Virus record (IMG/VR): IMGVR_UViG_3300025687_000084
Location: 1-44,476 of that record
Reading direction: 5' to 3' (one strand)
DNA from: a virus
DNA: 44,476 bases
Made by a program: the position numbers and the translations under genes. Of the stretch, positions 11,966 through 42,921 are shown in pieces. Under the pieces are notes generated by a model that was given only the letters and a program-made list of their open reading frames with translations, had not been told where the DNA came from and searched no databases. Each line of letters begins with the position of its first letter. Positions within the stretch are counted from its first letter, which is position 1.

Positions 11966-12739
11966 ATGAAGATTGTAGTAGCCACCGGGGGATTTGACCC
12001 TATCCACAGCGGACATATCCGCTACTTAGAAGCAGCAAAAGCGTTAGGTTCTTACTTGATTGTAGGCATAAATTCTGACGATTGGCTTGTGCGCAAAAAA
12101 GGACGTTATTTTATGCCCTGGGCCGAGCGTGCTGCTATTGTTCGCGCATTAGGATGTGTTGACGAAGTTATTTCCTTTGATGATTCAGATGGATCAGCTT
12201 GTAAAGCAATTGAATATGCTCTCGGTGTTAAAAATGATACAAGTGGCTGGATTCCATTTGATAGTGTAATATTTGCCAATGGCGGAGATAGAACTCAAAA
12301 TAATATTCCTGAAATGGTATTTGAGGAAGTTGAGTTTGTGTTTGGTGTTGGCGGCAACGATAAAGCAAATAGTAGCTCATGGATACTTGAAGAATGGAAG
12401 TCGCCAAAAACAACTCGTCAATGGGGATACTATCGTGTATTACACGAAGTAGAAGGATGCAAAGTAAAAGAGCTTACAGTTGATCCTGGCAAGAGTTTAT
12501 CTATGCAAAAACATGCTCAACGCAACGAATATTGGCTTGTTAGCGAAGGCAAGTGTATCGTTAATAGTAGATTAGATTCTGGATACACAATGCCACCTAA
12601 ACAATTAGAAAAGCATGATGAATTTACTATTATTTGTGGCGAATGGCATCAATTAACAAACCCTTTTGACAAGCCATGCAGAGTTGTAGAAATACAATAC
12701 GGTAATCGCTGCGATGAAGATGATATTGAGAGATTATGA
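11966..12739 (+). CDS. Cytidylyltransferase/RfaE-like nucleotidyltransferase fused to a mannose-6-P isomerase-type cupin
   Basis: A 257-residue two-domain protein. The N-terminal half (1-140) is a nucleotidyltransferase of the HxGH class: VVATGGFDPIHSGHIRYLEAA (H14, H17), then VGINSDDWLVRKKG and WAERAAIVRALGCVDEVI. Such enzymes activate heptose-phosphate, glycerol-phosphate and similar molecules to NDP forms. The C-terminal half (about 150-257) is a cupin like that of type II mannose-6-phosphate isomerases: WGYYRVLHEVEGCKVKEL, MQKHAQRNEYWLVSEG and EWHQLTNPFDKPCRVVEIQ. Together they suggest supply of an activated sugar for the following transferases. The exact sugar cannot be read from sequence. 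The next gene starts in its stop (ATGA). Confidence 0.8.
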   Translation: MKIVVATGGFDPIHSGHIRYLEAAKALGSYLIVGINSDDWLVRKKGRYFMPWAERAAIVRALGCVDEVISFDDSDGSACKAIEYALGVKNDTSGWIPFDSVIFANGGDRTQNNIPEMVFEEVEFVFGVGGNDKANSSSWILEEWKSPKTTRQWGYYRVLHEVEGCKVKELTVDPGKSLSMQKHAQRNEYWLVSEGKCIVNSRLDSGYTMPPKQLEKHDEFTIICGEWHQLTNPFDKPCRVVEIQYGNRCDEDDIERL

Positions 12740-13407
12740 CTCAGAATTTTAAAAATCCCGATGCAAAGATAATCTACGAATATGTTGGTCATACTGCTCC
12801 TGACGATATGATTATGATCGATATTGGAGCAAGAACTGGCAAATGGTTAAGCCCATACGTTAGAACATTTCCAAATGCAAAATTTTTTTGTTTTGAGGGA
12901 TTAGAAGATCATTATAGTAAATTAAGCCAGCGATTTAGAAAAAATACAAATGTAGTTGCTACTCATGCAGTATTATCTGAATCAGACAATGAAGAAGTAA
13001 TATTTTTTAAGGATCTAAAACGAGCTGGCTGGAGTGGCATGAAAAAACACCAGTACATGGAACAATATGAAGAAATTAATTCTGTAACACAAACACTAGA
13101 TTCGTTTAATATAAAAAATGCATATTTTATAAAAATAGATGTTGAAGGTGCAGAGTTGTTAGTATTAAAGGGTGCTAAGAATACATTAAAAGATATAAAG
13201 ATAATTTACTTTGAATGCAACGAAGTACACTTCAAAGAATATAACTATACTGCAAACGATCTATACGATTTCTTAAATCAATATTTTGATATTTGCACAT
13301 TAGATTTAGAACCATTGACCAGAGATCAATTTTCATATATGACAAAAGATGAACGTAGATATGATCCTAACGGTTATCAAGGGAATTTTGTTGGGATTAG
13401 ACGATAA
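12736..13407 (+). CDS. FkbM-family methyltransferase
   Basis: A 223-residue SAM methyltransferase. Motif I is MIMIDIGARTGKWLSP, followed by FFCFEGLEDHY. The FkbM signature SVTQTLDSFNIKNAYFIKIDVEGAE (positions about 117-141) and VLKGAKNTL follow. These enzymes typically O-methylate sugars or polyketides; here a sugar of the surface glycan is the likely acceptor by context. ATGA overlap with the preceding gene. Confidence 0.82.
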   Translation: MTQNFKNPDAKIIYEYVGHTAPDDMIMIDIGARTGKWLSPYVRTFPNAKFFCFEGLEDHYSKLSQRFRKNTNVVATHAVLSESDNEEVIFFKDLKRAGWSGMKKHQYMEQYEEINSVTQTLDSFNIKNAYFIKIDVEGAELLVLKGAKNTLKDIKIIYFECNEVHFKEYNYTANDLYDFLNQYFDICTLDLEPLTRDQFSYMTKDERRYDPNGYQGNFVGIRR

Positions 13408-13408
13408 A

Positions 13409-13855
13409 ATGTCAGAGCCATCTTGGTCTAAGCGAAATGTTCTATTAGATAACTTCAACTTATCTCAATGTTCTGTCTTAGATATTGGATGCGGTGACAA
13501 GTCAATATTAAATTATTATTCACCAAAAGAATATTTAGGAATAGACAAGGATAACAGGGCAGATATTATAGTTGATTTTGATGTTGATTGTTTAGAGTTG
13601 AATAAAACTTATGATATTGGGTTAATACTAGGTGTACTTGAGTATCTTAGTAATCCTGATAAACTTATTAACGATTATAAAGGTAACGTAACACGTTTTG
13701 TTATAATAGTATTAACAAGGCACGCTCCAAAGATTAATCACAAATGGAAACGAGCGTTTAACGAATCTTCGTTTAATTTATTTTTAAGTAAACACTTTAA
13801 CGAGTATACAGTAACAAAGCATAACAGATATTTAATAGCAGAGTGTATAACATGA
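13409..13855 (+). CDS. Small SAM-dependent methyltransferase
   Basis: A 148-residue protein. The first in-frame ATG downstream of the FkbM stop is 13409, and it gives a sensible start to the fold. Motif I is SVLDIGCGDKSILNYY, followed by YLGIDKDNRADIIVDFDVD and YDIGLILGVLEYLSNPDKLI, as in MetW/ubiquinone-type methyltransferases. It is shorter than most class I enzymes, ending after NRYLIAECIT, but the core is complete. ATGA overlap with the next glycosyltransferase. Confidence 0.72.
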   Translation: MSEPSWSKRNVLLDNFNLSQCSVLDIGCGDKSILNYYSPKEYLGIDKDNRADIIVDFDVDCLELNKTYDIGLILGVLEYLSNPDKLINDYKGNVTRFVIIVLTRHAPKINHKWKRAFNESSFNLFLSKHFNEYTVTKHNRYLIAECIT

Positions 13856-14541
13856 AACCAATTCCAGTTTTTATCGGGTACGACCCACGAGAAGCAATAG
13901 CATATCACACGTGCGCTAATTCGATTATCAGACACGCAAGTAAACCAGTATCGATTATTCCATTAGCATTGAACTTGTTCGATGATTATAAGGAAACGCA
14001 CACAGACGGTTCAAATCACTTCATCTACAGTAGATTTCTTGTTCCGCACTTAATGGATTATCTTGGATGGGCTATCTTTATGGATGGTGATATGATTGTG
14101 CGTGATGATATTGTTAAACTGTGGGAATTACGTGAGGTAGACAAAGACGTAATGGTAGTTAAACATGATTACGAAACTAAGATGACTACAAAGTATCTTG
14201 GCGCAAAAAATGAAAACTATCCACGTAAGAATTGGTCAAGCGTTATACTTTGGAATTGTAACAGCCACCCTAATAGAATATTAAAACCAGAATATATTCA
14301 AAAGTCAACTGGTGCTCACTTGCATCGATTCAGCTGGATCAAAGATGAACGTATTGGAGAATTGCCGTTGGAGTGGAATTGGCTCCCAGACGAGTATGGC
14401 GAGAATCCAGATGCTAAATTGTTACATTACACATTAGGTACACCTAGTTTCCATGAGTTTGCTAACACCCCGATGGGTAGTGAATGGCATCGTGAACGTA
14501 TTTTAACTGAATATTGCGAACAGCATGATATTTTTAAGTAA
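13852..14541 (+). CDS. GT-A glycosyltransferase (GT8-like)
   Basis: A 229-residue protein starting at the ATG that overlaps the preceding stop. PVFIGYDPREAIAYHTCANS is the first strand-helix of a GT8-like fold. The metal and nucleotide-sugar DxD site is AIFMDGDMIVRDDIVKLW. LLHYTLGTPSFHEFAN near the end resembles the second metal-binding His region. It would transfer a sugar from an NDP donor to a surface glycan; donor and acceptor are unknown. Confidence 0.75.
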   Translation: MKPIPVFIGYDPREAIAYHTCANSIIRHASKPVSIIPLALNLFDDYKETHTDGSNHFIYSRFLVPHLMDYLGWAIFMDGDMIVRDDIVKLWELREVDKDVMVVKHDYETKMTTKYLGAKNENYPRKNWSSVILWNCNSHPNRILKPEYIQKSTGAHLHRFSWIKDERIGELPLEWNWLPDEYGENPDAKLLHYTLGTPSFHEFANTPMGSEWHRERILTEYCEQHDIFK

Positions 14542-15298
14542 GAATGGCGAAGATAGATATATCAATGACTTTGCTCGTGGGTGTGGAATAGAACCAACTA
14601 GCACTGAAACGTTTGATTACAATGATAGCAACGATACCATTGTACTAAGAGGTATTCTAAAGCATAAAATAATGAAACAATGCTGGAAAGACAACCGCAC
14701 GTTTTATTATATGGATACAGGATATTTTGGAAATGAAGGTACTTGGAAGTTTTGGCATCGCATAGTTAAAAACAATCTACAGCATACTACTATTATTGAA
14801 CGTCCTAACGATAGATTTAAGCAATTTAACAAAACTATTCACCCGTGGCGTTATGGACGCAACATATTAATTGCTATGCCAGACGAGAAGCCTTGTAAAT
14901 TCTATGATACAACACCTGAGCAATGGTTAGCTGATACCGTGAACACAATAAAGAAGTATACAGATAGGCCTATCGTAATACGTGAACGTTCTAAACAACG
15001 TACACAAAGAATTAACGAACCACTTGAAAAAGCATTAAGTAATGATGTGCATGCACTGGTTACATTTAACAGTAATGCAGCAACAGAAAGTGTATTTTAC
15101 GGTGTTCCTGTGTTTACACTTGCTCCTAACGCAGCAGGTCCTGCAGGATTGCAAGATTTAACACAAATTGAAACACCATATTACCCAAGCAATGATAAAC
15201 GCTATGCTTGGGCATGTCATTTAGCGTATGGACAATTCCATATTAAAGAATTAAAAGACGGATCTGCGAAACAAAAATTAGAAGAATGGTATGAGTAA
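14525..15298 (+). CDS. GT-B/capsule-transferase-like protein (YTDRP family, paralogue 1)
   Basis: A 257-residue protein with KKYTDRPIVIRERSKQRTQ and VHALVTFNSNAATESVFYGVPVF, the order seen in the C-terminal nucleotide-binding half of capsule-type transferases. It shares this with proteins at 16205, 17107 and 20119. In this copy the usual RPHP is RERS, so donor binding may differ. ATG at 14525 is inside the preceding gene (17-nt overlap); no other good in-frame start is nearby. Sugar or polyol-phosphate transferase activity is inference. Confidence 0.6.
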   Translation: MIFLSKNGEDRYINDFARGCGIEPTSTETFDYNDSNDTIVLRGILKHKIMKQCWKDNRTFYYMDTGYFGNEGTWKFWHRIVKNNLQHTTIIERPNDRFKQFNKTIHPWRYGRNILIAMPDEKPCKFYDTTPEQWLADTVNTIKKYTDRPIVIRERSKQRTQRINEPLEKALSNDVHALVTFNSNAATESVFYGVPVFTLAPNAAGPAGLQDLTQIETPYYPSNDKRYAWACHLAYGQFHIKELKDGSAKQKLEEWYE

Positions 15299-16208
15299 AC
15301 TAAAATTTGTAGTATTTCATAGAACTGACAAAAATAACGTAGGAGATATGGCATCTAATCCGCTACAATATTTTTTAAGTCCAGACGAATATGTCGCAGT
15401 TGACATTGCACATTACGGAAAGGTAGAGTTTCCAACTGATATTCCTGTTATTGTGGGCGGTGGCGGATTAATTGCCAATGAATTTTTTGGCGATGTATTA
15501 GAAGATATATTGGTGCATCCAGATAAGCAGCGTATTGAGAACTTGTGGAAGGAACGCTGGCAATTATTTGACGTTAACAATCAAAAGTTATATGAAGATT
15601 TTATTAGCAAATATGAAAAATTGCTTAGAGGAACATACGACAAAATCAAAAGTGCAAATGTGTTTAGGGCCATCTGGGGAGCAGGACATAATAGTAAAGA
15701 TCTGAATCCTAAAAAAGGAATAGCATATCCAGAATATCTGCTAAAATACAATGCAATCGGAATCAGAGACTATGGCAATGGATATAATTGGGTTCCGTGT
15801 GCAAGTTGCATGCATGAAGCTTTTGGTAAAGAATATACTGTTAAAAACGACGTTATCTGGTTTGAGCATAAAAAGCAACTGGTTAAAGAATTTGGCAATG
15901 ATCCAATACCAAGATACATAAACTCTGGTGATAATATTGAACATACTATTGAATTATTAGGCAGCGCAAATACTATTTTAACAAATAGCTATCACGGAGC
16001 GTATTGGGGCACATTGCTTGGTAAACGTGTAATTGTTGTTGGCGAATGGAGCACTAAGTTCAAATTCTTAAAGCATCAGCCGTATTTCCTGGATAAAAAG
16101 GAAGACTGGAAAGATATATTAGACGATGTTCCGGTATACACAGATGCACTAGAAGAATGCAGAGAAGCAAACCAACAATACTGGGAAAATATTAAAAGCA
16201 GCGTATGA
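15291..16208 (+). CDS. Polysaccharide pyruvyltransferase-like protein
   Basis: A 305-residue protein. The N-terminus FHRTDKNNVGDMASNPLQYF and PVIVGGGGLIANEFF, then IWGAGHNS and AIGIRDYGNG, and C-terminal SANTILTNSYHGAYWGTLLG with KRVIVVGEWSTKF follow the polysaccharide pyruvyltransferase (CsaB/WcaK-like) order. Family members add ketal pyruvate from PEP to sugars of surface polymers. Overlaps by 8 nt with the upstream gene and ATGA with the downstream one. Confidence 0.75.
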   Translation: MSKLKFVVFHRTDKNNVGDMASNPLQYFLSPDEYVAVDIAHYGKVEFPTDIPVIVGGGGLIANEFFGDVLEDILVHPDKQRIENLWKERWQLFDVNNQKLYEDFISKYEKLLRGTYDKIKSANVFRAIWGAGHNSKDLNPKKGIAYPEYLLKYNAIGIRDYGNGYNWVPCASCMHEAFGKEYTVKNDVIWFEHKKQLVKEFGNDPIPRYINSGDNIEHTIELLGSANTILTNSYHGAYWGTLLGKRVIVVGEWSTKFKFLKHQPYFLDKKEDWKDILDDVPVYTDALEECREANQQYWENIKSSV

Positions 16209-17110
16209 AAGTTGTGGCGTATCTTGGCGGCGTGCCTAATCCTCGCAAAGCACCGCATAAAGTTGAAGTATTGCGTCGCTTTGTAGACGGAGTAAATCGC
16301 TGCGGAGATACTGGTATTGCATGGGGAGAACGCTCACCTGTACAAGCAGATGTTGGTGTAATACAAGGATGGGTACACGAAGGTAGTGCCAGTGTTCCTC
16401 ATCTACAATTAAGAAAGAATGTGGCGAAAAATACATATAACAAGCATACTATTATTGTTGATAGCAACTTGTTTAATTACACAGGTATCATTGAACCGCA
16501 TTATTCACGATACAGCATGGATGGCATTTTCCCGACAACAGGAAACTATTTCTGGGATGATCCTGATCCTGCTCGCTGGAAACAAATACAACGCGATTAT
16601 AATATATCCTTGAAGGATTGGAAACCCCGCGGAGATAACATTTTAATTTGTACTCAACGCAATGGTGGGTGGAGTATGAGTGGGTTTGACGTAGTTGATT
16701 GGTTAAAACAAACTGTGGCTAATATTCGCAAATATACAGACCGTCCTATTGTTGTTAGAGGACACCCAGGTGACAAAGGTGCCCAAGAATACCTATCTAA
16801 AAATCAAGGCCCGTGGGAAATTAGTACTAGCTCAAGCATCGTTGATGACTTCAATCGTGCTTGGTGTGTAGTTAATTACAATTCTAGTCCTGGTGTAGCA
16901 GCAGCAATTGAAGGATTACCTGTGTTTATTACAGATCCTAACCCATCGCGTAGTCAAGCGTATCCAGTGGCAAATACTAAATTAAACACAATAGAAAATC
17001 CTGCGTATTTTGATAGACAACAATGGATTGAACGTATCGCAATGTCGCATTGGCATTTTGATGAGCTAAGTAATGGGAGCGCCTGGGCGCATATGAGGAA
17101 ATATGTATGA
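16205..17110 (+). CDS. GT-B/capsule-transferase-like protein (YTDRP family, paralogue 2)
   Basis: A 301-residue protein with NILICTQRNGGWSMSGFDVV as a central strand-loop, RKYTDRPIVVRGHPGDKG (about 180-196) and RAWCVVNYNSSPGVAAAIEG with LPVFITDPN, the donor-binding half of a GT-B-like fold. The terminal segment DRQQWIERIAMSHWHFDEL is also shared with paralogues. It overlaps both neighbours by ATGA, forming a coupled run with the pyruvyltransferase-like gene. Activity is inferred from fold features only. Confidence 0.6.
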   Translation: MKVVAYLGGVPNPRKAPHKVEVLRRFVDGVNRCGDTGIAWGERSPVQADVGVIQGWVHEGSASVPHLQLRKNVAKNTYNKHTIIVDSNLFNYTGIIEPHYSRYSMDGIFPTTGNYFWDDPDPARWKQIQRDYNISLKDWKPRGDNILICTQRNGGWSMSGFDVVDWLKQTVANIRKYTDRPIVVRGHPGDKGAQEYLSKNQGPWEISTSSSIVDDFNRAWCVVNYNSSPGVAAAIEGLPVFITDPNPSRSQAYPVANTKLNTIENPAYFDRQQWIERIAMSHWHFDELSNGSAWAHMRKYV

Positions 17111-18042
17111 AAGTAAAAGTAGCTGGTATTCGCGGTAGTGTAAAAGCAATTAGACATATCGCTGAAGGTATTAGAAAGCACGGCGACGAATACGAATTAG
17201 CAGATTCAGTTACTGATCCAATTGCTCACAATGCTGATGCTTATCTGCAAACAAATCTATTAAAGCCTAAATTTGCAACCAAAGACGGATCTGGTCCTTA
17301 CGAATATATTCTACAAACTAATAAGCCGTTTTTAGTTCAAGAAAGTCCAAACTTTAGAAAGTACAGAGATGGTGGTTGGCAACGACTAGGCTGGTTTAGT
17401 TATAAATGGACCGAGGGTATTTTTGGTAACGAAAATTCTCCACCTGATAGATGGAATAAATTTGAACAAGAAACAGGGATCACGTTTAAGGACTGGAATA
17501 GCCCAGGTGATAAAATTATTTTCATGGGGCAAAAGGAAGGCGACTCTAGTATTATAGATATCTATAAACAAGGATTTGCAACATATACTGAATGGATGCT
17601 CAAAACTATACAAGATATTAGAACATATACGGACAGAGAAATTATTATTCGTCCGCATCCAAGAAATCTTAGAGGCGGACTTAAAGGAGCTAACTGGGTA
17701 GCTAATCAAATATCTAATGTGCGTGTTAGCGACAATCTTACTAAAGGTGGTGGCCAAGGCGGCGAAGGACTTGCAGCTGATTTGCAACAAGCTCACTGTG
17801 TAGTTACATACAATAGTTTAAGTGGAATTGAAAGTATCGAAGAAGGTATTCCAACTTTTGCATTACACAATGGATCAATGATTTGGCCTATTGCGCATCG
17901 AGACTTGTCTCAACTTGAAAATCTTAGATATGACGTAGATATTACTCAATGGAAATATGATATTGCTTATACTCAATGGACAATTGAAGAACAACAACGC
18001 GGCGAGAGCTGGGCACACTTAAAACCGTTAATGTTTAAATAA
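17107..18042 (+). CDS. GT-B/capsule-transferase-like protein (YTDRP family, paralogue 3)
   Basis: A 311-residue protein with DKIIFMGQKEGDSSIIDIY, RTYTDREIIIRPHPRNLRGG and QAHCVVTYNSLSGIESIEEG with IPTFALHNGSM. It keeps the RPHP motif best among the local copies and ends with an IAYTQWTIEEQQRGESWAHL segment. Adjacent to paralogue 2 with ATGA overlap, suggesting tandem duplication followed by divergence. It converges with the minus-strand FkbM-like gene, overlapping it by 15 nt. Confidence 0.6.
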   Translation: MKVKVAGIRGSVKAIRHIAEGIRKHGDEYELADSVTDPIAHNADAYLQTNLLKPKFATKDGSGPYEYILQTNKPFLVQESPNFRKYRDGGWQRLGWFSYKWTEGIFGNENSPPDRWNKFEQETGITFKDWNSPGDKIIFMGQKEGDSSIIDIYKQGFATYTEWMLKTIQDIRTYTDREIIIRPHPRNLRGGLKGANWVANQISNVRVSDNLTKGGGQGGEGLAADLQQAHCVVTYNSLSGIESIEEGIPTFALHNGSMIWPIAHRDLSQLENLRYDVDITQWKYDIAYTQWTIEEQQRGESWAHLKPLMFK

Positions 18043-18618
18043 TTCTGCCCAATTAGAGTATTCAACAGTATTAAAATCGATATCATTGCGAACAAACCAG
18101 GTTTCAAATAATCTTGCTGGTTTATTCATAGCAAACACATTATTTACAGCAACACGATATCCGTGTTCTGCTAAAAATTCTACAGCAAGTTGATGGTAGT
18201 TAGACTTGTTTTTATAATAATCATGTTCAAAGGTAATACAGTCAAACGTAATACCATCTGTGACGACTTTTTTTAATGCATTTAGTGTATTCTCTGCAGG
18301 TTCAATATCGCAACTTAAATAACCAACACGTGTTGACATTCCGTTATCTAGTACAGCCCGAGCGTAATCAAATGTGATTGCATTGTCCCAATATATTCGA
18401 TTAGTACGTTCTGATTGGCTCTCCCAGTTATTTTTAAATTTTTTTTGGTTGAGTTCGATGCTGAATCCTTTCCAGCCATTGAGAACTTCCAATGGGTATG
18501 TGTTGTTGCTTTTCTTGTAATCGTTGGCACCTATTTCAATGTATGATTGATGCCTGGCAACAGATAATGCAAACTGATCCTGTCCTGCTTGCGAGTAATA
18601 TAATAATTTATTTTTCAT
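18028..18618 (-). CDS. FkbM-like methyltransferase
   Basis: A 196-residue protein. YYSQAGQDQFALSVA and SYIEIGANDYKKSNNTYPLE with GWKGFSIELNQKKF are the start of the FkbM-like fold seen in proteins that methylate surface sugars. IEPAENTLNALKKV and FDCITFEHDYYK give the later acidic strands. It is the last of three minus-strand genes (20106 down to 18028) that overlap each other. The acceptor is unknown. Confidence 0.7.
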   Translation of the reverse strand: MKNKLLYYSQAGQDQFALSVARHQSYIEIGANDYKKSNNTYPLEVLNGWKGFSIELNQKKFKNNWESQSERTNRIYWDNAITFDYARAVLDNGMSTRVGYLSCDIEPAENTLNALKKVVTDGITFDCITFEHDYYKNKSNYHQLAVEFLAEHGYRVAVNNVFAMNKPARLFETWFVRNDIDFNTVEYSNWAELFKH

Positions 18619-19300
18619 TTTTGAATATATTTTTTCTTTTTGCTTTATAGTGCTTCATTCTTCCGTCAAAAATTTTATTGAATGGACTTAATGCTGTATC
18701 TGGATTTGGGTTAAGCTCGCGGTACTTAAATTTTTTATTTGTTCGCAATGTTCGGATCACCTTTCCGAAAATATCCCCATCAAATGGTTTATGCAGATTA
18801 GTAAAATCTCGGTTGTAGTATATTCTACGATATTCATTTAAAAAATCATTTTTATACTTGCTTGATCTGTTAATAATAAAGAATCCGGTTTCAACCGAGT
18901 AATAATTTCCTTGCGGGACACCTATGTGCGCACTAAAGTTGTCATTATTGATTAATGACAATAACCAGGACTCAGTAACAATAGATTCAGTTAATACATC
19001 AGCATCGACCCATATTAAATATCCGTTGTCTGACTCTAAATGTTTCATTATAGGCCATGCTTTTTTAGCGAACCGTTTTATACGATCTCCGAGTTTCATT
19101 TTCTCATTTTGGAGTTTGTGGTATTCTGCATCCATTGTATCTAGATTAATGATATTAATGCGTTTGTGATTAATATCTATGTGATCTTCGGTATAAACAG
19201 ATAAGGTATAAGTATCTGGCCAAAATTCTAACCAGGTTTGAATCATGTGTTTTCCGATACTATCGTAGTATTCTTGCGACATTCCTGTAATGATATCCAT
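18608..19300 (-). CDS. Glycosyltransferase, GT-A type with DAD motif
   Basis: A 230-residue protein starting at the ATG that overlaps the stop of the upstream minus-strand gene (TAATG). HMIQTWLEFWPDTYTLSVYTED and GYLIWVDADVLTES (DxD at about 114-116) match the adjacent paralogue's RMIQTFLQNWPATVNLYVYAE and YLIWMDADMVCHS. SVETGFFIINRSSKY is the strand after the catalytic site. The C-terminus is highly basic. A nucleotide-sugar-dependent transferase is likely; specificity is unknown. Confidence 0.72.
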   Translation of the reverse strand: MDIITGMSQEYYDSIGKHMIQTWLEFWPDTYTLSVYTEDHIDINHKRINIINLDTMDAEYHKLQNEKMKLGDRIKRFAKKAWPIMKHLESDNGYLIWVDADVLTESIVTESWLLSLINNDNFSAHIGVPQGNYYSVETGFFIINRSSKYKNDFLNEYRRIYYNRDFTNLHKPFDGDIFGKVIRTLRTNKKFKYRELNPNPDTALSPFNKIFDGRMKHYKAKRKNIFKNEK

Positions 19301-20106
19301 TATTTCCAATAATCCTCTGACCGATGTATTAATAAATCTTTAGGCTTACTACGTCCAATTTTTTTGCGATTACCTTTTAAATGATCAAGGTATGCGCCCC
19401 AGTCTGAGTTAATGATTGGATGGCCTTCGCCCTTAATTAATCCATCACTCCAATCTTTCTGAGACAACGGCAATTGTTTGCGCACAGCATCAAATACAAA
19501 TGAATCATGCCATTCCTCTAACGTAAAAATGCCATTTTCGGCATTGTCGTAATACTGCTGAAATAACTTTAAAAAATTTTGTATATGTCCAGATCGTAAT
19601 CCCATTGCATATAAACCGCACTCTGAATATTTTCCTCGTCTACCTAAATAATATAAGTCACTACTGCCGTCAATTAAGCGATTGATATCTTCCTGAGCAA
19701 TAGGACTATGACAGACCATATCAGCATCCATCCAAATTAAATAGTCTGCATGCGTATGTTTAGCAGCATGAAAAATAGAATAAACCTTATGAGAGAATCG
19801 AATAGCATCCCATTTAAATCCCTTGCCAGCATCTTTACGTTTGCTGCGCACCGGATCAGTTGATACGTCTCCGTTTGCTTTTGGCACGTTTTGCCATCGT
19901 TGTTTAAATGCAACTAATTCTGGACTGGCTTCTTCTAAGTTAAATACAGTTAGGTTTGGTGCTGATTCTGTAACAGTACAGTTTTCAGCATACACATATA
20001 GATTTACTGTAGCTGGCCAGTTTTGTAAAAAGGTTTGAATCATACGTTTGCCGTATAATTCGTATCCGTTTTTGTGAAATGTAGTAACTACGGTATAGCT
20101 GGTCAT
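19300..20106 (-). CDS. Glycosyltransferase, GT-A type with DAD motif
   Basis: A 268-residue protein. VVTTFHKNGYELYGKRMIQT begins the nucleotide-binding strand; the metal site is DYLIWMDADMVCHSP; ECGLYAMGLRSGHIQNFL and EWHDSFVFDAVRKQ follow in the usual order. It is the first gene of the minus-strand trio and a paralogue of the next gene. Its ATG is 12 bp from the divergent ATG at 20119. TATAAATA on its strand lies 5 nt upstream. Confidence 0.75.
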   Translation of the reverse strand: MTSYTVVTTFHKNGYELYGKRMIQTFLQNWPATVNLYVYAENCTVTESAPNLTVFNLEEASPELVAFKQRWQNVPKANGDVSTDPVRSKRKDAGKGFKWDAIRFSHKVYSIFHAAKHTHADYLIWMDADMVCHSPIAQEDINRLIDGSSDLYYLGRRGKYSECGLYAMGLRSGHIQNFLKLFQQYYDNAENGIFTLEEWHDSFVFDAVRKQLPLSQKDWSDGLIKGEGHPIINSDWGAYLDHLKGNRKKIGRSKPKDLLIHRSEDYWK

Positions 20107-20111
20107 TATGG

Positions 20112-20119
20112 TATTTATA
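20112..20119 (-). promoter_or_regulatory. Consensus late promoter box TATAAATA, 5 nt before a minus-strand start
   Basis: Perfect TATAAATA on the minus strand, followed by five bases and ATG at 20106. Its far base is the A of the plus-strand start codon at 20119, so promoter and divergent coding region share a base. Confidence 0.65.
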
Positions 20120-20958
20120 TGGCAACAATAGGATACTTTCCAAAGTCTGTCGCACTTAACGGTAAGGAAGTTATAGAAGCATTTCTGTCAGGTGCCCGGA
20201 AGCACGGATTAATACCTGTTGAAAATGGAATGGATTGCGATTATGCTGTTATATGGTCTGTGTTGTGGAACGGACGACTAGCAGCAAACCAACGTATATA
20301 TGCGCACTACAAACATCACGGCAAGCCTGTATTTGTAATTGATGTTGGCGCATTAAAGCGAGGAGAAACTTGGAAAATAGCACTTAATAATATTAATGCA
20401 GAAGGTTATTACGGACATTTAGACCACTTAGATATGGATCGTCCACAAAAACTTGGATTAGAGTTAAAGACACAAACAGAAAATAACGGCGCCATTGTGA
20501 TAGCAGCTCAGCATAGACAATCAGAACAAATACGTGGGGTTGATATTGAGCAGTGGGTAGTAAAAACTTTTTACGACCTAAGAGAATATACTGATCGTCC
20601 TATAATAATACGTCCGCATCCGCGGTGCCTGGTTAATATGGATCGATTGCCAATTGAAGCAAATGTTGAAAAACCTACAAAAGTTGCCGGAACTTACGAT
20701 AGTTTTGATTTAACATATAATTGGCACGCATTAATAAATTACAACAGCGGCCCAGGAATACAAGGAGCCATTGCTGGGTGTCCTGTAGTTGTTCACGAGA
20801 CAAGTTTGGCACATCCTATTTCTATAGAATTAAAAAAGGTTGAAACACCAACGCATTTAAATAGAGAATTATGGTTTACGCAAATAGCACATACCGAGTA
20901 TACTGTAGATGAAATACGTACTGGTGTGTGGTATAAAAGACTTGAGGTTAGAATGTGA
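20119..20958 (+). CDS. GT-B/capsule-transferase-like protein (YTDRP family, paralogue 4)
   Basis: A 279-residue protein starting at ATG 20119, 12 bp from the divergent gene; an upstream in-frame ATG would overlap that gene by 33 nt and adds residues not seen in paralogues. MATIGYFPKSVALNGKEVIE resembles the N-terminus of paralogues 2 and 3 (short strand, then a helix). REYTDRPIIIRPHPRCLVN and WHALINYNSGPGIQGAIAG with CPVVVHETS form the donor-binding half. A transferase of sugar or polyol phosphate to a surface polymer is likely but unproven. Confidence 0.6.
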   Translation: MATIGYFPKSVALNGKEVIEAFLSGARKHGLIPVENGMDCDYAVIWSVLWNGRLAANQRIYAHYKHHGKPVFVIDVGALKRGETWKIALNNINAEGYYGHLDHLDMDRPQKLGLELKTQTENNGAIVIAAQHRQSEQIRGVDIEQWVVKTFYDLREYTDRPIIIRPHPRCLVNMDRLPIEANVEKPTKVAGTYDSFDLTYNWHALINYNSGPGIQGAIAGCPVVVHETSLAHPISIELKKVETPTHLNRELWFTQIAHTEYTVDEIRTGVWYKRLEVRM

Positions 20959-21653
20959 TTGATTGTGCATGTGTAATACACGGTGATCTGTATGATTGGG
21001 TATATGTTGATAAATTATACGCAGGATTACAACGAGGATTTAGCCAGCCAGTAACGCTACACGTTTATACAGAAGCTGAACGCGAAGTTCCTGCGCCATA
21101 TATTAAACATTCTTTGTATGATATGCGCAAACATAATTGCCGTAAAGGATGGTGGTACAAAGTACAATTATTTGATCGTAAACAATTTGATAATCAGCTT
21201 ATATATTTTGATTTGGATGTTGCTATTACGGGAAATTTAGACTGGATATTAGATCTAGATACAAAATATTTTTGGGGAATACAAGATTTTAAATACCTAT
21301 TTAATCAGCGGAAATTAGAATTAAATAGTAGTGTAATGTATTTTAATGTTGATAAATATAATTATGTATGGGGCGAATTTATTAAAAGTCCTGAATCATA
21401 CATGAATAAATTACATGGCGATCAGAATTTTATTGATCGGATGATACCAATCGAGCAGAAAAGATTTTTTGATATAACTCGCATCAAAAGTTGGCGCTGG
21501 CAATTGTTTGATGGTGGCTGGAATAATGAAACCAAGAACCATCGAACCCCAGGTACCGGAACAGTAATTGATAAAAATACTAGTATTGCGGTTTTCCATG
21601 GAAAACCAAAGTTACATCAACTAAATGACGCAGTAATTGATAAATATTGGTAA
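20955..21653 (+). CDS. Glycosyltransferase-like protein with DLD motif
   Basis: A 232-residue protein starting at GTG 20955 overlapping the preceding stop (GTGA). DLYDWVYVDKLYAGLQRGF, LHVYTEAEREVPAP and QLIYFDLDVAITGNLDWIL (DxD) followed by LELNSSVMYFNVDKYN fit a GT-A core. The end IAVFHGKPKLHQL resembles the HGxxKP terminal motif of GT8-like enzymes. It ends the plus-strand surface-glycan group. Confidence 0.72.
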   Translation: MIDCACVIHGDLYDWVYVDKLYAGLQRGFSQPVTLHVYTEAEREVPAPYIKHSLYDMRKHNCRKGWWYKVQLFDRKQFDNQLIYFDLDVAITGNLDWILDLDTKYFWGIQDFKYLFNQRKLELNSSVMYFNVDKYNYVWGEFIKSPESYMNKLHGDQNFIDRMIPIEQKRFFDITRIKSWRWQLFDGGWNNETKNHRTPGTGTVIDKNTSIAVFHGKPKLHQLNDAVIDKYW

Positions 21654-38383: not shown

Positions 38384-39453
38384 GATTAATCTCAAATATA
38401 CCCGAGTTTGGAACATTAGTTAACAATATTGACTGTTTCTACAATGATGATATTTTTTATACGTATGATGTTATTACAGCCAATGAATTAAATGAGCTTT
38501 TTGATCAGAAACAAAAGCCAAAGTATATTTTTAACGATAGCTTAGATTTCAATGAAGACAAATATAGCGTTCCGGTGTATAGTAGCAATCTGTATCTGGA
38601 ACAATTAGTTAAACGTTTTAAATATGGGCTAGATCAAAATTTGATACAAGTTCCAGAAACATTGTTAGTTACGCATCCAGTTAACTTTTCGATTAATAAA
38701 AAATTAATACATCGGTATTTGTTACTCAAACTAGTTGAACTATTTAAAATTGACGCAAGCTATTCGTGGTCAGGTTGCGGGAAAAATTTTGATCTACAAT
38801 ATCTAATAGATGAATACAATTCGTTGTTATCCCCTCCGATGACCAACGATCAATGGTCTTTTTTATTATCTCCTATTAAAAAAATACAACCAAAATGGTA
38901 TTCAGATAATGAACCTGAAGTTATCAATGATGTTGGCATTTCAAATGCAGGTAATATCTGTCTAATGTGGGACGTTGCAATAAAAAATGTTATGCAACAT
39001 ACAGGAATATCTCTTATTACAGAAAGCACCTGGACACAGAAGGCTATACATTTTAGTGAAAAAACATTATATGCTATTGTAGCAAGAACATTCCCAATTT
39101 GGGTTGGTGGTTATAAGCAAGCTGAAACATGGGAAAATTACGGATTTGATACATTTAGTGATATTATTAATCACGACTACCAATATCGAAACACATTATT
39201 AGAGCGTTGTTGGTATGCAATTGCGGATAATATAGATTTGATTACTAACAAAGAAAAAGTACAACGACTTCGAAATAAATTTGAAAAAAGGCTTAACGAA
39301 AATAGAAAAATATTATTATATGAAAATAATATTGAACAAGTTAACACTCAGAAAATTAAATCGTGGCCATTGGATCTACAGCAATCTATAAATCCAATTG
39401 TTAATCAATTTAGAACTTTTAAAAATAAATATAACAATATAACAGAGATTTGA
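38380..39453 (+). CDS. Glycosyltransferase-like protein with SEK motif (paralogue 3)
   Basis: A 357-residue protein starting at GTG 38380 that overlaps the helicase stop (GTGA). The C-terminal half has LITESTWTQKAIHFSEKTLY followed by ARTFPIWVGGYKQAETWENY and GFDTFSDIINHDYQYRNTLL. This matches the E...(x)F.(T/S)EK......P...G......GF.TF...........R pattern of the proteins at 7717 and 32209. The N-terminal half is unrecognised and highly variable. The frame ends before a small gene at 39455. Confidence 0.5.
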   Translation: MRLISNIPEFGTLVNNIDCFYNDDIFYTYDVITANELNELFDQKQKPKYIFNDSLDFNEDKYSVPVYSSNLYLEQLVKRFKYGLDQNLIQVPETLLVTHPVNFSINKKLIHRYLLLKLVELFKIDASYSWSGCGKNFDLQYLIDEYNSLLSPPMTNDQWSFLLSPIKKIQPKWYSDNEPEVINDVGISNAGNICLMWDVAIKNVMQHTGISLITESTWTQKAIHFSEKTLYAIVARTFPIWVGGYKQAETWENYGFDTFSDIINHDYQYRNTLLERCWYAIADNIDLITNKEKVQRLRNKFEKRLNENRKILLYENNIEQVNTQKIKSWPLDLQQSINPIVNQFRTFKNKYNNITEI

Positions 39454-39454
39454 C

Positions 39455-39703
39455 ATGCAAAAACGTACTCGGAGTATTCTCGAAGAATTAGAAAGTATGT
39501 ATGTAGAGCGTGACCGCTCGCATTTAGTTGAAAGCCGGGCAAATAATGTAATTTCTAGCGCCATTAGATTAATGGAATTTATTGATTCTAATTATTCTGA
39601 AGAGGACGCTGAGGTGTTAAATCGTAAATTGTTGAATGCTATTAGATCACGGGATCTGAGAAAATTTAAGAGGAGTTTACAACGCACCGATGAAGATCAA
39701 TGA
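39455..39703 (+). CDS. Small unknown helical protein
   Basis: An 82-residue charged helical protein (SILEELESMYVERDRSHLVE, AIRLMEFIDSNYSEEDAEVL, RSRDLRKFKRSLQRTDED). It begins one base after the preceding stop and overlaps the next gene by 14 nt. Composition suggests a coiled-coil or nucleic-acid-associated protein; no family recognised. Confidence 0.7.
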   Translation: MQKRTRSILEELESMYVERDRSHLVESRANNVISSAIRLMEFIDSNYSEEDAEVLNRKLLNAIRSRDLRKFKRSLQRTDEDQ

Positions 39704-40616
39704 CATAACTACTAATAGCCAATTAACAGAAAGTTTTATTAATTGGCAAGATCTCAAAACAGCAGGATCATCGCTACTAAAACAGTTGCGATTAGGAACC
39801 CCTCTAAAACAAATATCGCAAAATGTTATGCAAGACCGAGCGGTTAATCTGGCAGCAGAAGCATTCATAGACCAATGGCGAAGAATTCGATATTCACTGG
39901 CGCAAGCATATAAAACGCCAAATCAGTCTAGATATGCTGAAGCATTACATGAAATCGTATTTAAAGAGCTTGACTTAAATTCTAATGATACAGTAATTGC
40001 AGCAGTTAAAACAATTCTTGATGCAGGCGATAATCTAAATTCATCGAGCGTAAAACAAGCTGCGCTAACTATTATTTTGCAAGGAATAGTTTCTCAAATT
40101 GAACCTAAAAATGCACGAGAAAAAGTTGATGTTCAATCTAGACGTCTTAAGAATGTGCATTATGGGGAACGGTTTTTGGGTATATCAATTAACGATATTA
40201 CTAAAGGACTCAGAGTACCTGTTATTGTATTAATGGAATCAAATCCTGTGTTCCCCGATCAATATGATCGGTTTGTTAAATTTGACGGTCGTTGGTTTAA
40301 TATGGATATTAGAGAAAAATCTGGACAACAAACCACTGAAGCTAAATCTCGTAGAAGAAGACCACAAAAATCACCAGACACAACTGTACCGCCAAAAAAA
40401 TATCCTGAGTTGGCACCAACTGCATATGTTATTGATGGGAGTACATTAGTTGGTCCTAACACACAATTGGACAAATCTGCTGACAGATTGTTAACATTAA
40501 ATAATCCAGATCGGGCTAGATATACGGTAATTGAATGTATGCAACCTAAATCATTTTTTAGAGAGTTAACACCAATGGAATTTGATCTTTGGAAAATTCA
40601 GTCAGGACACAAGTGA
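39690..40616 (+). CDS. Unknown protein, possibly virion-associated
   Basis: A 308-residue protein. The N-terminal two-thirds are helical (RAVNLAAEAFIDQWRRIRYS, ALTIILQGIVSQIEPKNARE); then a small beta region VPVIVLMESNPVFPDQYDRF; a basic linker EAKSRRRRPQKSP; and a C-terminal segment RARYTVIECMQPKSFFRELT. The ATG overlaps the preceding gene and the stop overlaps the next (TGATG). It is coupled to the nucleotidyltransferase-ligase-like gene, so may be its partner. No known family. Confidence 0.68.
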   Translation: MKINDITTNSQLTESFINWQDLKTAGSSLLKQLRLGTPLKQISQNVMQDRAVNLAAEAFIDQWRRIRYSLAQAYKTPNQSRYAEALHEIVFKELDLNSNDTVIAAVKTILDAGDNLNSSSVKQAALTIILQGIVSQIEPKNAREKVDVQSRRLKNVHYGERFLGISINDITKGLRVPVIVLMESNPVFPDQYDRFVKFDGRWFNMDIREKSGQQTTEAKSRRRRPQKSPDTTVPPKKYPELAPTAYVIDGSTLVGPNTQLDKSADRLLTLNNPDRARYTVIECMQPKSFFRELTPMEFDLWKIQSGHK

Positions 40617-42511
40617 TGAAATCCATTTATACTCTATTAGAAGGTGGAAACGTATTCAAAAATGCCGACGGATCGGCTGCAACAGTTCGTATTGACCGTG
40701 ATTATGTAAAACCAACTGTTAAATGGTTAGAACAAATAACTGCTCTTCCGTTGTTACAAAACATGCTTGGCACAACAGGAAAGAAAGCAACGTCGGGTGA
40801 TTTAGACTTAGGTGTTGACGCTTCTAAATATAATAAAGACGGGTTAGTTAATACGTTAACACAATGGGTAGAAGCAAACAACGGTAATCCAAAAGAATGG
40901 ATTAAAAAATCAGGTATTAATGTGCATTTTAAAACGCCTATTGCTGGCAACCCAGAGTATGGCTTTGTACAAACCGACTTTATGTTTGTACCTGATTTAG
41001 CATACTCGACATATTTCCTACACTCTGCACCAGATTCAAACTTTAAGGGCATGCATCGTAATGTGTTATTAAGTTCTATTGCTAAGGCAGTGGGATATAA
41101 AATCAATCAAACACAAGGATTGATCGCAAGAGATACAAATGAACTTGTAACTAACAATTGGGACGAAATTGCTAAGGTTCTATTAAGTCCAACAGCACGT
41201 AAAGAAGATTTACATTCTGTTGAAACTATTATGAATGCACTAGCACGTGATCCTAATCGCGAAGCAAAGATTAAAGATGCTCGCGAGTATTTTGAGCGTG
41301 AAGGATTACAATTAGAGCAAGGTGTATCAGAAAGTTACTTCCTTGCTAAACTACGTGATAGATTAACTACCCCAGGCATTTACGGTTTATACGAACAAAA
41401 TTTAATGGAAGCTCGTATTGAGCATCCTGAGGATTTGCCGTTTACACACGGCGGCCACGGCATAGAACAAGCTATTAGTATTCTTTCTAATATGGCAGAT
41501 ACTACAGAGCATGTTACAATTAAATGGGATGGCAAACCTGCTGTTATTTTCGGACGCAATCCAAAAGGTCAGTTTGTGTTAACTGATAAATCGGGGTTTG
41601 GTGCTAAAGGGTATGATGGTAGAGCAACATCACCAGAAATGCTAGCAGACATAATGAGTCAACGCAAAGGCGAGCGTGGCGAATTAATCGCTATGTACCA
41701 AAAGCTATTTCCGTTGTTAGAACGAGTAGTACCGCCTAACTTCCGTGGTTATGTCCAAGGCGATTTGTTGTTTGGTACCCCTGAACAACCTAAGCCAGAA
41801 AAGAATAAACACAACCAATATGTGTTTACTCCAAACACCATTACATATGAAGTTGACGCCGATTCGGACATTGGTCATGCTATTAGTAAAGCAGAAGTTG
41901 CTGTTGCTATACACACTCATGTAGATGAAGATGGGACTAGTCAGGCTATTAAGCATGTAGGCAATAGCTTACGTCATTCGCCGGGTGTACTAATATTAGA
42001 TCCTTATTTTGACGAAGATCCACATGTAAACATGCCCAAACGTGATCGCGAAGCACTTGAAGCATTAAAGGATTTGATTCCACTAGTCAATGATTTTATG
42101 CGTCCAGAAGAGTTTAGAAATCGTAAAATTTCTGATCTTCCGCAACAAATTAAAAAGTATGTTAATGCTCGTGTTAGAGAAGGACATTATGATAATCTAG
42201 CAGGTGGATTCATTGGTTGGATCGAAACAGCAGCGCCAAGTCAGCAAAAAGCCGCAAACATTAAGCAATACATAGCCGAACATAAAAAAGGATTTGCTGC
42301 GATCATTAAGGCATTTTTAGTGATTTCACAGGTAAAAAGCGATATCGTGCGCCAACTTGATCAACAAGCAGGGTCAGTGCATGCTCATATTGCTGGCGAA
42401 CCGGGTCACGAAGGCTATGTAGCAGACACAGAACATGGTCCTGTTAAGTTTGTGGATCGCATGCGGTTTAGTCAAGCAAATTTTGCAAAAAACAATCCTG
42501 AACTAGGATAA
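40616..42511 (+). CDS. Pol X-like nucleotidyltransferase fused to a ligase-like (KxDG) nucleotidyltransferase domain
   Basis: A 631-residue protein starting at ATG 40616 in TGATG; the in-frame codon at 40589 lies in the previous gene. Two catalytic folds are visible. The first (about 45-160) has TGKKATSGDLDLGVD (D62, D64) and YGFVQTDFMFVPD (D121), the metal triad of DNA polymerase beta/Pol X-type nucleotidyltransferases. The second (about 270-631) has motif I TIKWDGKPAV (K303, D305, G306), a motif III-like FRGYVQGDLLFG (D383), motif IV GHEGYVAD (E599) and motif V PVKFVDRMRF (K611), the order of DNA/RNA ligases and capping enzymes. The stretch between III and IV, about 215 residues, is long. 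It may process or seal nucleic-acid ends. No family name is certain and activity is inference. A late box follows the gene. Confidence 0.65.
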   Translation: MKSIYTLLEGGNVFKNADGSAATVRIDRDYVKPTVKWLEQITALPLLQNMLGTTGKKATSGDLDLGVDASKYNKDGLVNTLTQWVEANNGNPKEWIKKSGINVHFKTPIAGNPEYGFVQTDFMFVPDLAYSTYFLHSAPDSNFKGMHRNVLLSSIAKAVGYKINQTQGLIARDTNELVTNNWDEIAKVLLSPTARKEDLHSVETIMNALARDPNREAKIKDAREYFEREGLQLEQGVSESYFLAKLRDRLTTPGIYGLYEQNLMEARIEHPEDLPFTHGGHGIEQAISILSNMADTTEHVTIKWDGKPAVIFGRNPKGQFVLTDKSGFGAKGYDGRATSPEMLADIMSQRKGERGELIAMYQKLFPLLERVVPPNFRGYVQGDLLFGTPEQPKPEKNKHNQYVFTPNTITYEVDADSDIGHAISKAEVAVAIHTHVDEDGTSQAIKHVGNSLRHSPGVLILDPYFDEDPHVNMPKRDREALEALKDLIPLVNDFMRPEEFRNRKISDLPQQIKKYVNARVREGHYDNLAGGFIGWIETAAPSQQKAANIKQYIAEHKKGFAAIIKAFLVISQVKSDIVRQLDQQAGSVHAHIAGEPGHEGYVADTEHGPVKFVDRMRFSQANFAKNNPELG

Positions 42512-42527: not shown

Positions 42528-42535
42528 TATAAATA
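42528..42535 (+). promoter_or_regulatory. Consensus late promoter box TATAAATA
   Basis: Perfect TATAAATA 31 nt before the ATG at 42567, followed by AAGGAG at the usual distance. A conventional late leader. Confidence 0.78.
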
Positions 42536-42914: not shown

Positions 42915-42921
42915 ATAAATA
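42914..42921 (+). promoter_or_regulatory. Consensus late promoter box TATAAATA
   Basis: Perfect box overlapping the end of the preceding terminator's T-run, 25 nt before ATG 42947; AGGAG precedes the start. Confidence 0.75.

Follow-up and report, generated by a model that had tools for sequence, protein, structure and literature searches.

What would a phage gain by joining a nucleotidyltransferase (NTase) that resembles the family X DNA polymerases to a ligase-like enzyme in one polypeptide, and by placing the gene in a late operon? This question is raised by a gene at positions 40616 to 42511 of IMG/VR virus record IMGVR_UViG_3300025687_000084, a viral stretch of 44,476 bases (hereafter the window) from a T4-like phage, in which genes for a gp61-like primase and a gp41-like helicase lie just 5' of this gene. 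A first-pass annotation, made from the letters and their open reading frames, had noticed Pol X-like and ligase-like motifs in the encoded 631-amino-acid protein. All of them were located where it had placed them: GTTGKKATSGDLDLGVD at residues 52-68, VQTDFMF at 118-124, KWDG at 303-306, GDLLF at 382-386, HEGYV at 598-602 and VKFVDR at 610-615.

The explanation that we favor, with a probability of roughly 0.55, is that the gene encodes a late, head-packaged pair of enzymes that is cut apart at head maturation, delivered with the genome, and used to fill and seal strand breaks. The precursor, a minimal Pol X-like NTase and a ligase-type enzyme predicted to be covalently adenylated on a lysine, would be made late from a T4-type late promoter and would enter the prohead core. 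A gp21-type prohead protease would then cut at LLE↓GG (after residue 9) and at LME↓AR (after residue 265), with the arrow marking the cut, freeing both enzymes inside the head. Both would travel into the host with the genome, the NTase extending strand ends or filling gaps with nucleotides and the ligase sealing the joint, and the incoming (or packaged) phage nucleic acid would be mended ahead of the synthesis of new phage enzymes. What computation shows is the two domains, their folds and the invariance of their catalytic residues, together with the cleavage motifs and the late operon; packaging, cleavage, injection and catalytic activity we infer as parts of the explanation that accounts best for them. 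The original proposal of a single-chain enzyme stands insofar as one open reading frame encodes both halves, but it may hold for the precursor only, as the halves are probably separated after assembly. The gene and the parts of its product are as follows.

40616..42511, + strand: fusion of a Pol X-like NTase and a DUF6267 ligase-like domain, 631 amino acids, open from the ATG at 40616
40616..40642, + strand: MKSIYTLLE, a putative propeptide predicted to be cut off by the prohead protease after E9 (LLE↓GG), disordered in the model
40643..41323, + strand: Pol X-like nucleotidyltransferase domain, residues 10-236, from the AlphaFold model and Foldseek
40799..40807, + strand: predicted catalytic D62 and D64 (SGDLD), from conservation
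40976..40978, + strand: predicted third catalytic acidic residue, D121 (VQTD), from conservation
41324..41419, + strand: disordered linker, residues 237-268, with a conserved FLA(R/K)LRDR segment; pLDDT below 50 at 237-265
41402..41413, + strand: predicted site for the prohead protease (LME↓A, residues 263-266), separating the two enzymes, from [LI]xE conservation
41411..42508, + strand: DUF6267 ligase-superfamily domain, residues 266-631, from Pfam PF19782, the domain model and PDB fold matches
41522..41533, + strand: motif I KWDG with the predicted adenylated lysine K303, from conservation
41759..41770, + strand: motif III-like GDLL, with D383 invariant
42038..42361, + strand: all-helical insert between motifs III and IV, residues 475-582, from the secondary structure of both models
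42410..42421, + strand: motif IV EGYV (E599), with E599, G600 and V602 invariant
42446..42460, + strand: motif V-like KFVDR (K611, R615), with K611, V613 and R615 invariant

Sequence searches of Pfam, PHROGs, NCBIfam and PDB gave no match for the N-terminal part. The C-terminal part belongs to Pfam DUF6267 (PF19782, E=1.2e-48; 166.8 bits against a cut-off of 27, over residues 268-625) and to phrog_455, both of which lack an assigned function. Structures were modeled with AlphaFold2, using 59 fused homologues for the full-length protein and 70 sequences for the DUF6267 domain. The full-length model reached a predicted local distance difference test (pLDDT) value of 89.9, with disorder confined to residues 1-8 and 237-265, and the DUF6267 domain alone reached 94.7, with a predicted template modeling score of 0.91. 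The fold search that had been suggested as a check on the motifs returned a Pol X-like fold for the N-terminal half and a ligase-like fold for the C-terminal half. Foldseek matched the NTase in PDB to Pol lambda, beta and mu, TdT and ASFV Pol X (probability 0.99-1.00, E 4e-3 to 3e-2); its best 12 PDB matches were all Pol X enzymes, with modest scores (E 3.7e-3 to 1.4e-2, probability 1.00). Among the top 50 PDB matches of the whole model, the only NTase folds were Pol X enzymes, and nearly all of the rest were DNA ligases or ligase-containing complexes. For the DUF6267 domain, the first 18 PDB matches were all DNA or RNA ligases, including the non-homologous end-joining ligase IV, archaeal and human DNA ligases, a Naegleria RNA ligase and a tRNA ligase.

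The residues on which catalysis would depend are conserved within the same 59 fused homologues, which are pairwise less than 88% identical. D64, K303, E599 and K611, four of the five positions singled out in advance, are invariant, and the fifth, D62, is present in 58 of 59. Also invariant are D305, G306, D383, G600, V602, V613 and R615, while D121 is present in 58/59. The conservation of K303, D305, G306 and D383 extends to all 70 DUF6267 sequences. Among 24 divergent NTases, with identities down to about 24% and including those of the Lak and Atu_ph07 phages, only G52, G61, D62, D64, Q119, D121 and G168 are invariant. This conservation is the strongest point in favor of the predicted active sites. 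The claimed Pol X-like metal triad is thus borne out by D62, D64 and D121 together with the fold search, and the features expected of the Pol beta-type superfamily (G52, S/T53, D62, D64 and D121, with a palm fold) are found in the conservation and in the model. The sequence GSTGKK stands where Pol X enzymes have GSxRRG, so that the arginine pair is missing. On the ligase side, motifs I, III, IV and V do occur in the proposed order on an adenylation-domain fold, with D383, E599-G600 and K611 invariant, motif III having D for the canonical E and motif V having KxVxR for KxK. The spacing of about 215 residues between motifs III and IV is as claimed, and the model resolves it into strands and an all-helical block of about 110 residues (475-582). 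We are highly confident that both domains have these folds and are catalytically competent.

The T4 prohead protease gp21 recognizes L/I-X-E and cuts after E, an early example being Glu-Ala (PMC9026906). Both disordered segments, the one before the NTase and the one before the ligase, contain an [LI]-x-E whose next residue is A, G or S, and exactly two such sites are present in the window protein (7-10 and 263-266). Ahead of the NTase, [LI]xE immediately precedes GG in 105 of 111 homologues, compared with a mean of 7 and a maximum of 15 in shuffled sequences; two exceptions among these 111 N-termini start at M-GG, like the NTases of jumbo phages. A site before the ligase core was found in 75/76 fused and 21/22 unfused proteins, and in a wider set [LI]xE was present in 103 of 106 pre-ligase segments (mean 5, maximum 12 in 2000 shuffles) and, after clustering at 50% identity, in 19 of 19 clusters. 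At this site, E is required at P1 (N, the next best residue, in 22) and L or I at P3, and the following residue is A in 51, G in 26 and S in 13. Among cultured phages, the LxE form of DUF6267 is carried by Methylophilales phage Melnitz (ITE↓D) and Stenotrophomonas phage DLP6 (LAE↓S). The distance from site to core varies from 2 to 13 residues, and therefore the pre-ligase site is not simply an inherited alignment. When [LI]xE(A/G/S/N) was counted by region in the 59 fused proteins and compared with expectation, the N-terminus had 52 sites (4.4 expected) and the linker 67 (8.2 expected), an 8- to 12-fold enrichment in the two disordered segments, while the folded domains were depleted (NTase, 6 with 24.3 expected; ligase, 18 with 42.6 expected).

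As controls, the neighboring helicases (0/48) and primases (0/29) had no N-terminal sites, and their total counts equaled those of shuffled sequences. The virion proteins of the block were enriched (110 sites versus 41 overall; 11 of 45 N-termini versus 2.7), and in a late neighbor, the TDLY protein, 16 of 18 sequences had an LxE site at the N-terminus. All seven phage records that are complete encode a gp21-type protease, as do the two contigs from close relatives that extend into the head genes and include the full capsid gene. The gp23 N-terminus of one such relative reads MSQELLEGRW...ALLEGLQ...VILENTK, with LLE↓G and ILE↓N sites, and that of the second is similar. The earlier guess of a role on packaged DNA, and with it delivery to the host, gains independent support from the prohead-protease-type sites and the late promoter. 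We regard packaging and cleavage as probable.

A T4-like targeting N-terminus was seen in 12-16 of 32 unfused DUF6267 proteins versus 3-8% of other open reading frames; such a sequence in the fused proteins was also considered but is unsupported, as none is clear in the fused NTase N-termini. The linker, though disordered, is conserved at residues ~237-262 (41324-41400) with an FLA(R/K)LRDRIVNQGM-like sequence, and a comparable aromatic-x-R-R peptide (e.g., AWFRRMMEATK) stands at the C-terminus of unfused NTases. This conserved segment may serve to bind the head core, a clamp or nucleic acid.

Expression of the gene appears to be governed by the promoter of the operon in which it is the last gene. 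The relevant features are:

39425..39431, + strand: T4-type late promoter core ATAAATA, 23 bases 5' of the start codon of gene 39455
39455..39703, + strand: first gene of the late operon, an 82-amino-acid "virion structural protein" (phrog_11854, head and packaging), with an LVE↓S site
39690..40616, + strand: second gene of the operon, lineage-specific, a 308-amino-acid protein of no known function or family, with a MKINDITTNSQLTE↓S N-terminus
42529..42535, + strand: next T4-type late promoter core, before gene 42567, marking the end of the operon

Genes 39455, 39690 and 40616 follow one another without gaps, forming one operon, and a further late promoter occurs at 42915. ATAAATA is the core of T4 late promoters, whose consensus is TATAAATA. 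T4 late promoters consist of an 8-bp TATA box (PMC2988020). ATAAATA occurs 15 times in the whole window versus 27 expected; since it is not over-represented, the promoter evidence lies in its position rather than its number. Across loci, NATAAATA was found upstream of the 82-amino-acid gene in 88 of 140, mostly 25-31 bases away, compared with 3% of random windows, and just one of 161 NTase genes had a late promoter of its own. The 82-amino-acid virion gene is the general partner, being upstream in 75/77 loci. The first-pass annotation had coupled the enzyme to gene 39690 instead: this gene does adjoin it in the window, but it neighbors the NTase in only 5/77 loci, and we rejected it as a stable partner.

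The association of the two enzymes reaches well beyond the window. A first scan of viral contigs gave 17 relatives, mostly fused, with several having separate NTase and DUF6267 genes; the domain-profile scans then yielded more than 580 stretches with relatives in each. NTase-DUF6267 fusions account for 116 open reading frames in the fetched loci, and many other contigs carry the two as separate genes side by side. Three contigs, L143 (3912-6887), L145 and L172, have fusions in the reverse order (DUF6267, about 350 amino acids of unknown sequence, then NTase) of about 980-990 amino acids. A tblastn search of annotated phages with the whole protein returned 482 records, nearly all T4-like cyanophages matched via DUF6267, which in these phages precedes, or is fused to, a cytidylyltransferase-like domain. 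In cellular genomes, the sole DUF6267 match lay in a contig of a Rickettsiales metagenome-assembled genome, so that the family is essentially viral.

The NTase was also found in Lak, Atu_ph07, Phosso and Flavobacterium immuto phages. In Atu_ph07 and Phosso, its gene overlaps a gene with the ligase motifs EKLDGS...EGVV. The overlapping Atu_ph07 protein is an RNA ligase according to UniProt, is nearest to Pfam RNA_ligase (E=0.002, under the cut-off), and matches the window protein structurally (E=6.6e-4, probability 1.00). Comparison of DUF6267 with this ligase-like pair by hhalign, using a two-sequence profile, was not significant (probability 0.4); the link is thus drawn from the structural match and the motifs, not from the profile comparison. 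An end-extending fold thus stays linked to an end-sealing one, whether through fusion in either order or as adjacent genes, and also where the ligase has diverged greatly. Beside the NTase gene of the Flavobacterium phage immuto (L180:4908-7631) is encoded a 907-amino-acid protein that combines an NMNAT-like domain with a second NTase-like motif, GS..GDLDI; this is a further association of NTases with cytidylyltransferase-like domains, as in cyanophages. A family-less late gene with a TDLYxY motif (225-313 amino acids), conserved as far as the jumbo phages, was seen 3' of the NTase/ligase genes (L014:2843-3715, L017:4961-5902, L179:4806-5594, L178:4824-5501).

Virion data are available for a cyanophage: the T4-GC190 "citidylyltransferase" was detected by mass spectrometry in purified S-SM1 virions (PMC3037559). 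The GC190 gene of S-SM1 directly follows DUF6267, and its product begins MKKFSAFLNE↓A, which resembles the T4 targeting sequence. In S-PM2, the older annotation includes the C-terminal half of DUF6267 in the GC190 cluster, and a 591-amino-acid cytidyltransferase-like S-PM2 protein in BFVD matches over DUF6267. In record AJ630128 (L018, 4980-6759), the S-PM2 DUF6267 is split across two annotated genes, GC71 and GC190, while it is in one piece in LN828717; the split is probably due to a frameshift in one of the records.

Several observations weigh against the explanation given above. The protein detected in virions is GC190, the partner of DUF6267, rather than DUF6267 itself or the window protein. 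The 44-kb window fragment contains neither gp21 nor gp23. The DUF6267 proteins of S-SM1 and S-PM2 lack an LxE site before the core, and the NTases of the Atu_ph07, Phosso, Flavobacterium and Lak phages start at M-GG or M-SG with no propeptide; packaging is therefore not a property of the whole superfamily. Because homologues have common ancestry, comparison with shuffled sequences exaggerates their independence, but the result survives clustering at 50% identity. The PDB fold matches have E-values of 0.004-0.1 and low template modeling (TM) scores; because these E-values are weak, the case for the folds rests on the consistency of the matches together with the motifs. Sequence-profile searches (Pfam, NCBIfam, PDB) gave no match to Pol X enzymes or ligases: 24 NTase members against Pfam, and their profile against PDB, produced no Pol X match, and the Pfam RNA_ligase profile did not match the window protein. 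The NTase has neither a helix-hairpin-helix (HhH) nor a lyase domain, a single helix preceding the palm in the model, and the ligase lacks an OB-fold and motif VI, the chain ending 16 residues past motif V in one helix. Finally, one fused homologue (L119, 5272-7101) carries both D62N and D121N while keeping the ligase residues; judging from these substitutions, its NTase is probably inactive. L119 and its near relative L121 both lack the EGG N-terminus.

The substrate is the least certain part of our explanation. We slightly prefer DNA gaps and nicks over RNA, and we consider it about an even bet that DNA gap or nick repair, rather than RNA repair or effector action, is the job of the pair. 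The two enzymes might instead be a packaged RNA-repair or counter-defense pair, injected early, with the ligase sealing RNA (such as tRNA that host anticodon nucleases have cleaved) and the NTase restoring or extending RNA 3' ends. An OB fold is absent after motif V in Rnl1/Rnl2-type RNA ligases as well, the Atu_ph07 partner leans toward RNA_ligase in both Pfam and UniProt, several viral RNA ligases are among the weaker BFVD matches, and the Naegleria RNA ligase has the best target TM-score and a low root-mean-square deviation among the PDB matches. At the same time, a gp30-like DNA ligase (PF01068) is present in nine relatives and in phage DLP6 (PMC5349666), so that a second DNA ligase is not obviously needed. 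However, the NTase matches family X DNA polymerases in fold, not poly(A) or CCA-adding enzymes; DNA ligases head the PDB matches found with the ligase domain; and no kinase or phosphatase healing domain was seen beside the gene. We consider RNA repair rather unlikely. The gp30-like ligases also bear on a role as an unpackaged intracellular accessory to replication or recombination, filling gaps and sealing nicks with the gp41/gp61 replisome. Pol X plus ligase is the classical gap-repair combination, the gene lies just 3' of the primase and helicase genes (a helicase being within 3.5 kb in 38/77 loci), and PF01068 was not found in cyanophage S-PM2 or in phage Melnitz. Yet the operon is opened by a late promoter with a virion gene, the true replication neighbors lack cleavage motifs, and the relatives and DLP6 with a separate gp30-like ligase indicate that the fused protein is not the replicative ligase there; for the same reason, the idea that DUF6267 generally replaces a missing DNA ligase was rejected. 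A replication accessory is thus an improbable answer.

Two further possibilities retain packaging but not repair. The NTase could be an injected effector that nucleotidylates host proteins or RNA, with the ligase-like domain using another acceptor, in the service of host take-over. Pol-beta superfamily NTases do occur in injected polyvalent phage proteins as predicted protein modifiers (PMC5512222), and the T4 enzyme Alt, which modifies host RNA polymerase, is packaged and cut by gp21 (PMC9026906); the recurrent pairing of end-extending with end-sealing folds, seen in either order and, in Atu_ph07, involving a second ligase, better fits a joint nucleic acid substrate and leaves this reading with little likelihood. 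A catalytically dead structural head protein derived from enzyme folds would suit a late operon with virion genes and the D62N and D121N changes of L119, but apart from that homologue, both domains keep their catalytic residues essentially invariant at identities of ~24-45%, making such a protein very improbable.

Elsewhere in the window, inspection by eye showed a terminase-like open reading frame with an intein-like N-terminal stretch and an adjoining HNH-like open reading frame (811-1938 with 255-884), as if an intein or homing endonuclease had inserted into the large terminase gene. A series of sugar-nucleotide, methyltransferase and glycosyltransferase-like genes (11966-21653) and two amidinotransferase-like genes (6458 and 30682) appear, likewise by eye, to be unusual cargo for surface or metabolic modification.

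The packaged, gap-filling and sealing pair that we favor has partial parallels among known systems. In architecture, the nearest is the Phaeocystis globosa virus PolX (PgVPolX), a PolX-ligase that fills gaps and seals nicks (PMC5537341). PgVPolX belongs to a virus of a eukaryote and has an NAD+-dependent-type ligase and lyase activity, whereas the window protein has DUF6267 with KWDG, no lyase/HhH domain, and a linker with a phage head-protease site. The DUF6267/phrog_455 proteins of T4-like cyanophages share the motifs KWDG, EG and K-x-V-D-R with the window protein, but their partner is a cytidylyltransferase-like domain instead of a Pol X-like NTase. Relative to family X DNA polymerases, the NTase is alike in its predicted palm and C-terminal subdomain and in its three catalytic aspartates, and differs in lacking the 8-kDa lyase/HhH fingers, the RR of GSxRRG and any detectable sequence homology. 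ASFV Pol X likewise has no lyase domain. The gp065/gp066 pair of the Agrobacterium jumbo phage Atu_ph07 has a same-family NTase gene overlapping an RNA-ligase-like gene; in contrast to the window, the genes are separate, the ligase comes first and is too diverged for DUF6267, and the NTase has no LxE propeptide. In delivery, the closest parallels are T4 Alt and the internal head proteins, which have a short N-terminal peptide ending in L/I-x-E and are expressed late (PMC9026906). The presumed packaging and injection of the window protein would match the T4 internal proteins, of which Alt is also an enzyme, except that a second cut in the window precursor would split two enzymes of one chain. 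We know of no T4 internal protein that is a polymerase or a ligase.

The literature searched contained no mention of DUF6267, nor any phage combination of Pol X-like enzyme and ligase joined by a cleavable linker. With this work, DUF6267, a family found here in over 460 phage records as well as hundreds of viral contigs from the environment, gains a testable function as a covalent nucleotidyltransferase, probably a ligase, and a Pol X-like NTase family that is absent from Pfam is named. If packaging is confirmed, this would be, to our knowledge, the first repair pair of polymerase and ligase type delivered by a phage head. At somewhat less than even odds, a large unrecognized group of T4-like phages may carry in the head a self-separating kit of NTase and ligase, made as one chain for co-packaging, split by the head protease and injected, so that the incoming genome is mended or host RNA manipulated ahead of all phage gene expression. 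Confirmed packaging would suggest that incoming large phage genomes have strand defects on arrival or meet immediate attack, and it would reveal fusion followed by protease cleavage as a means of co-packaging two enzymes at a fixed ratio.

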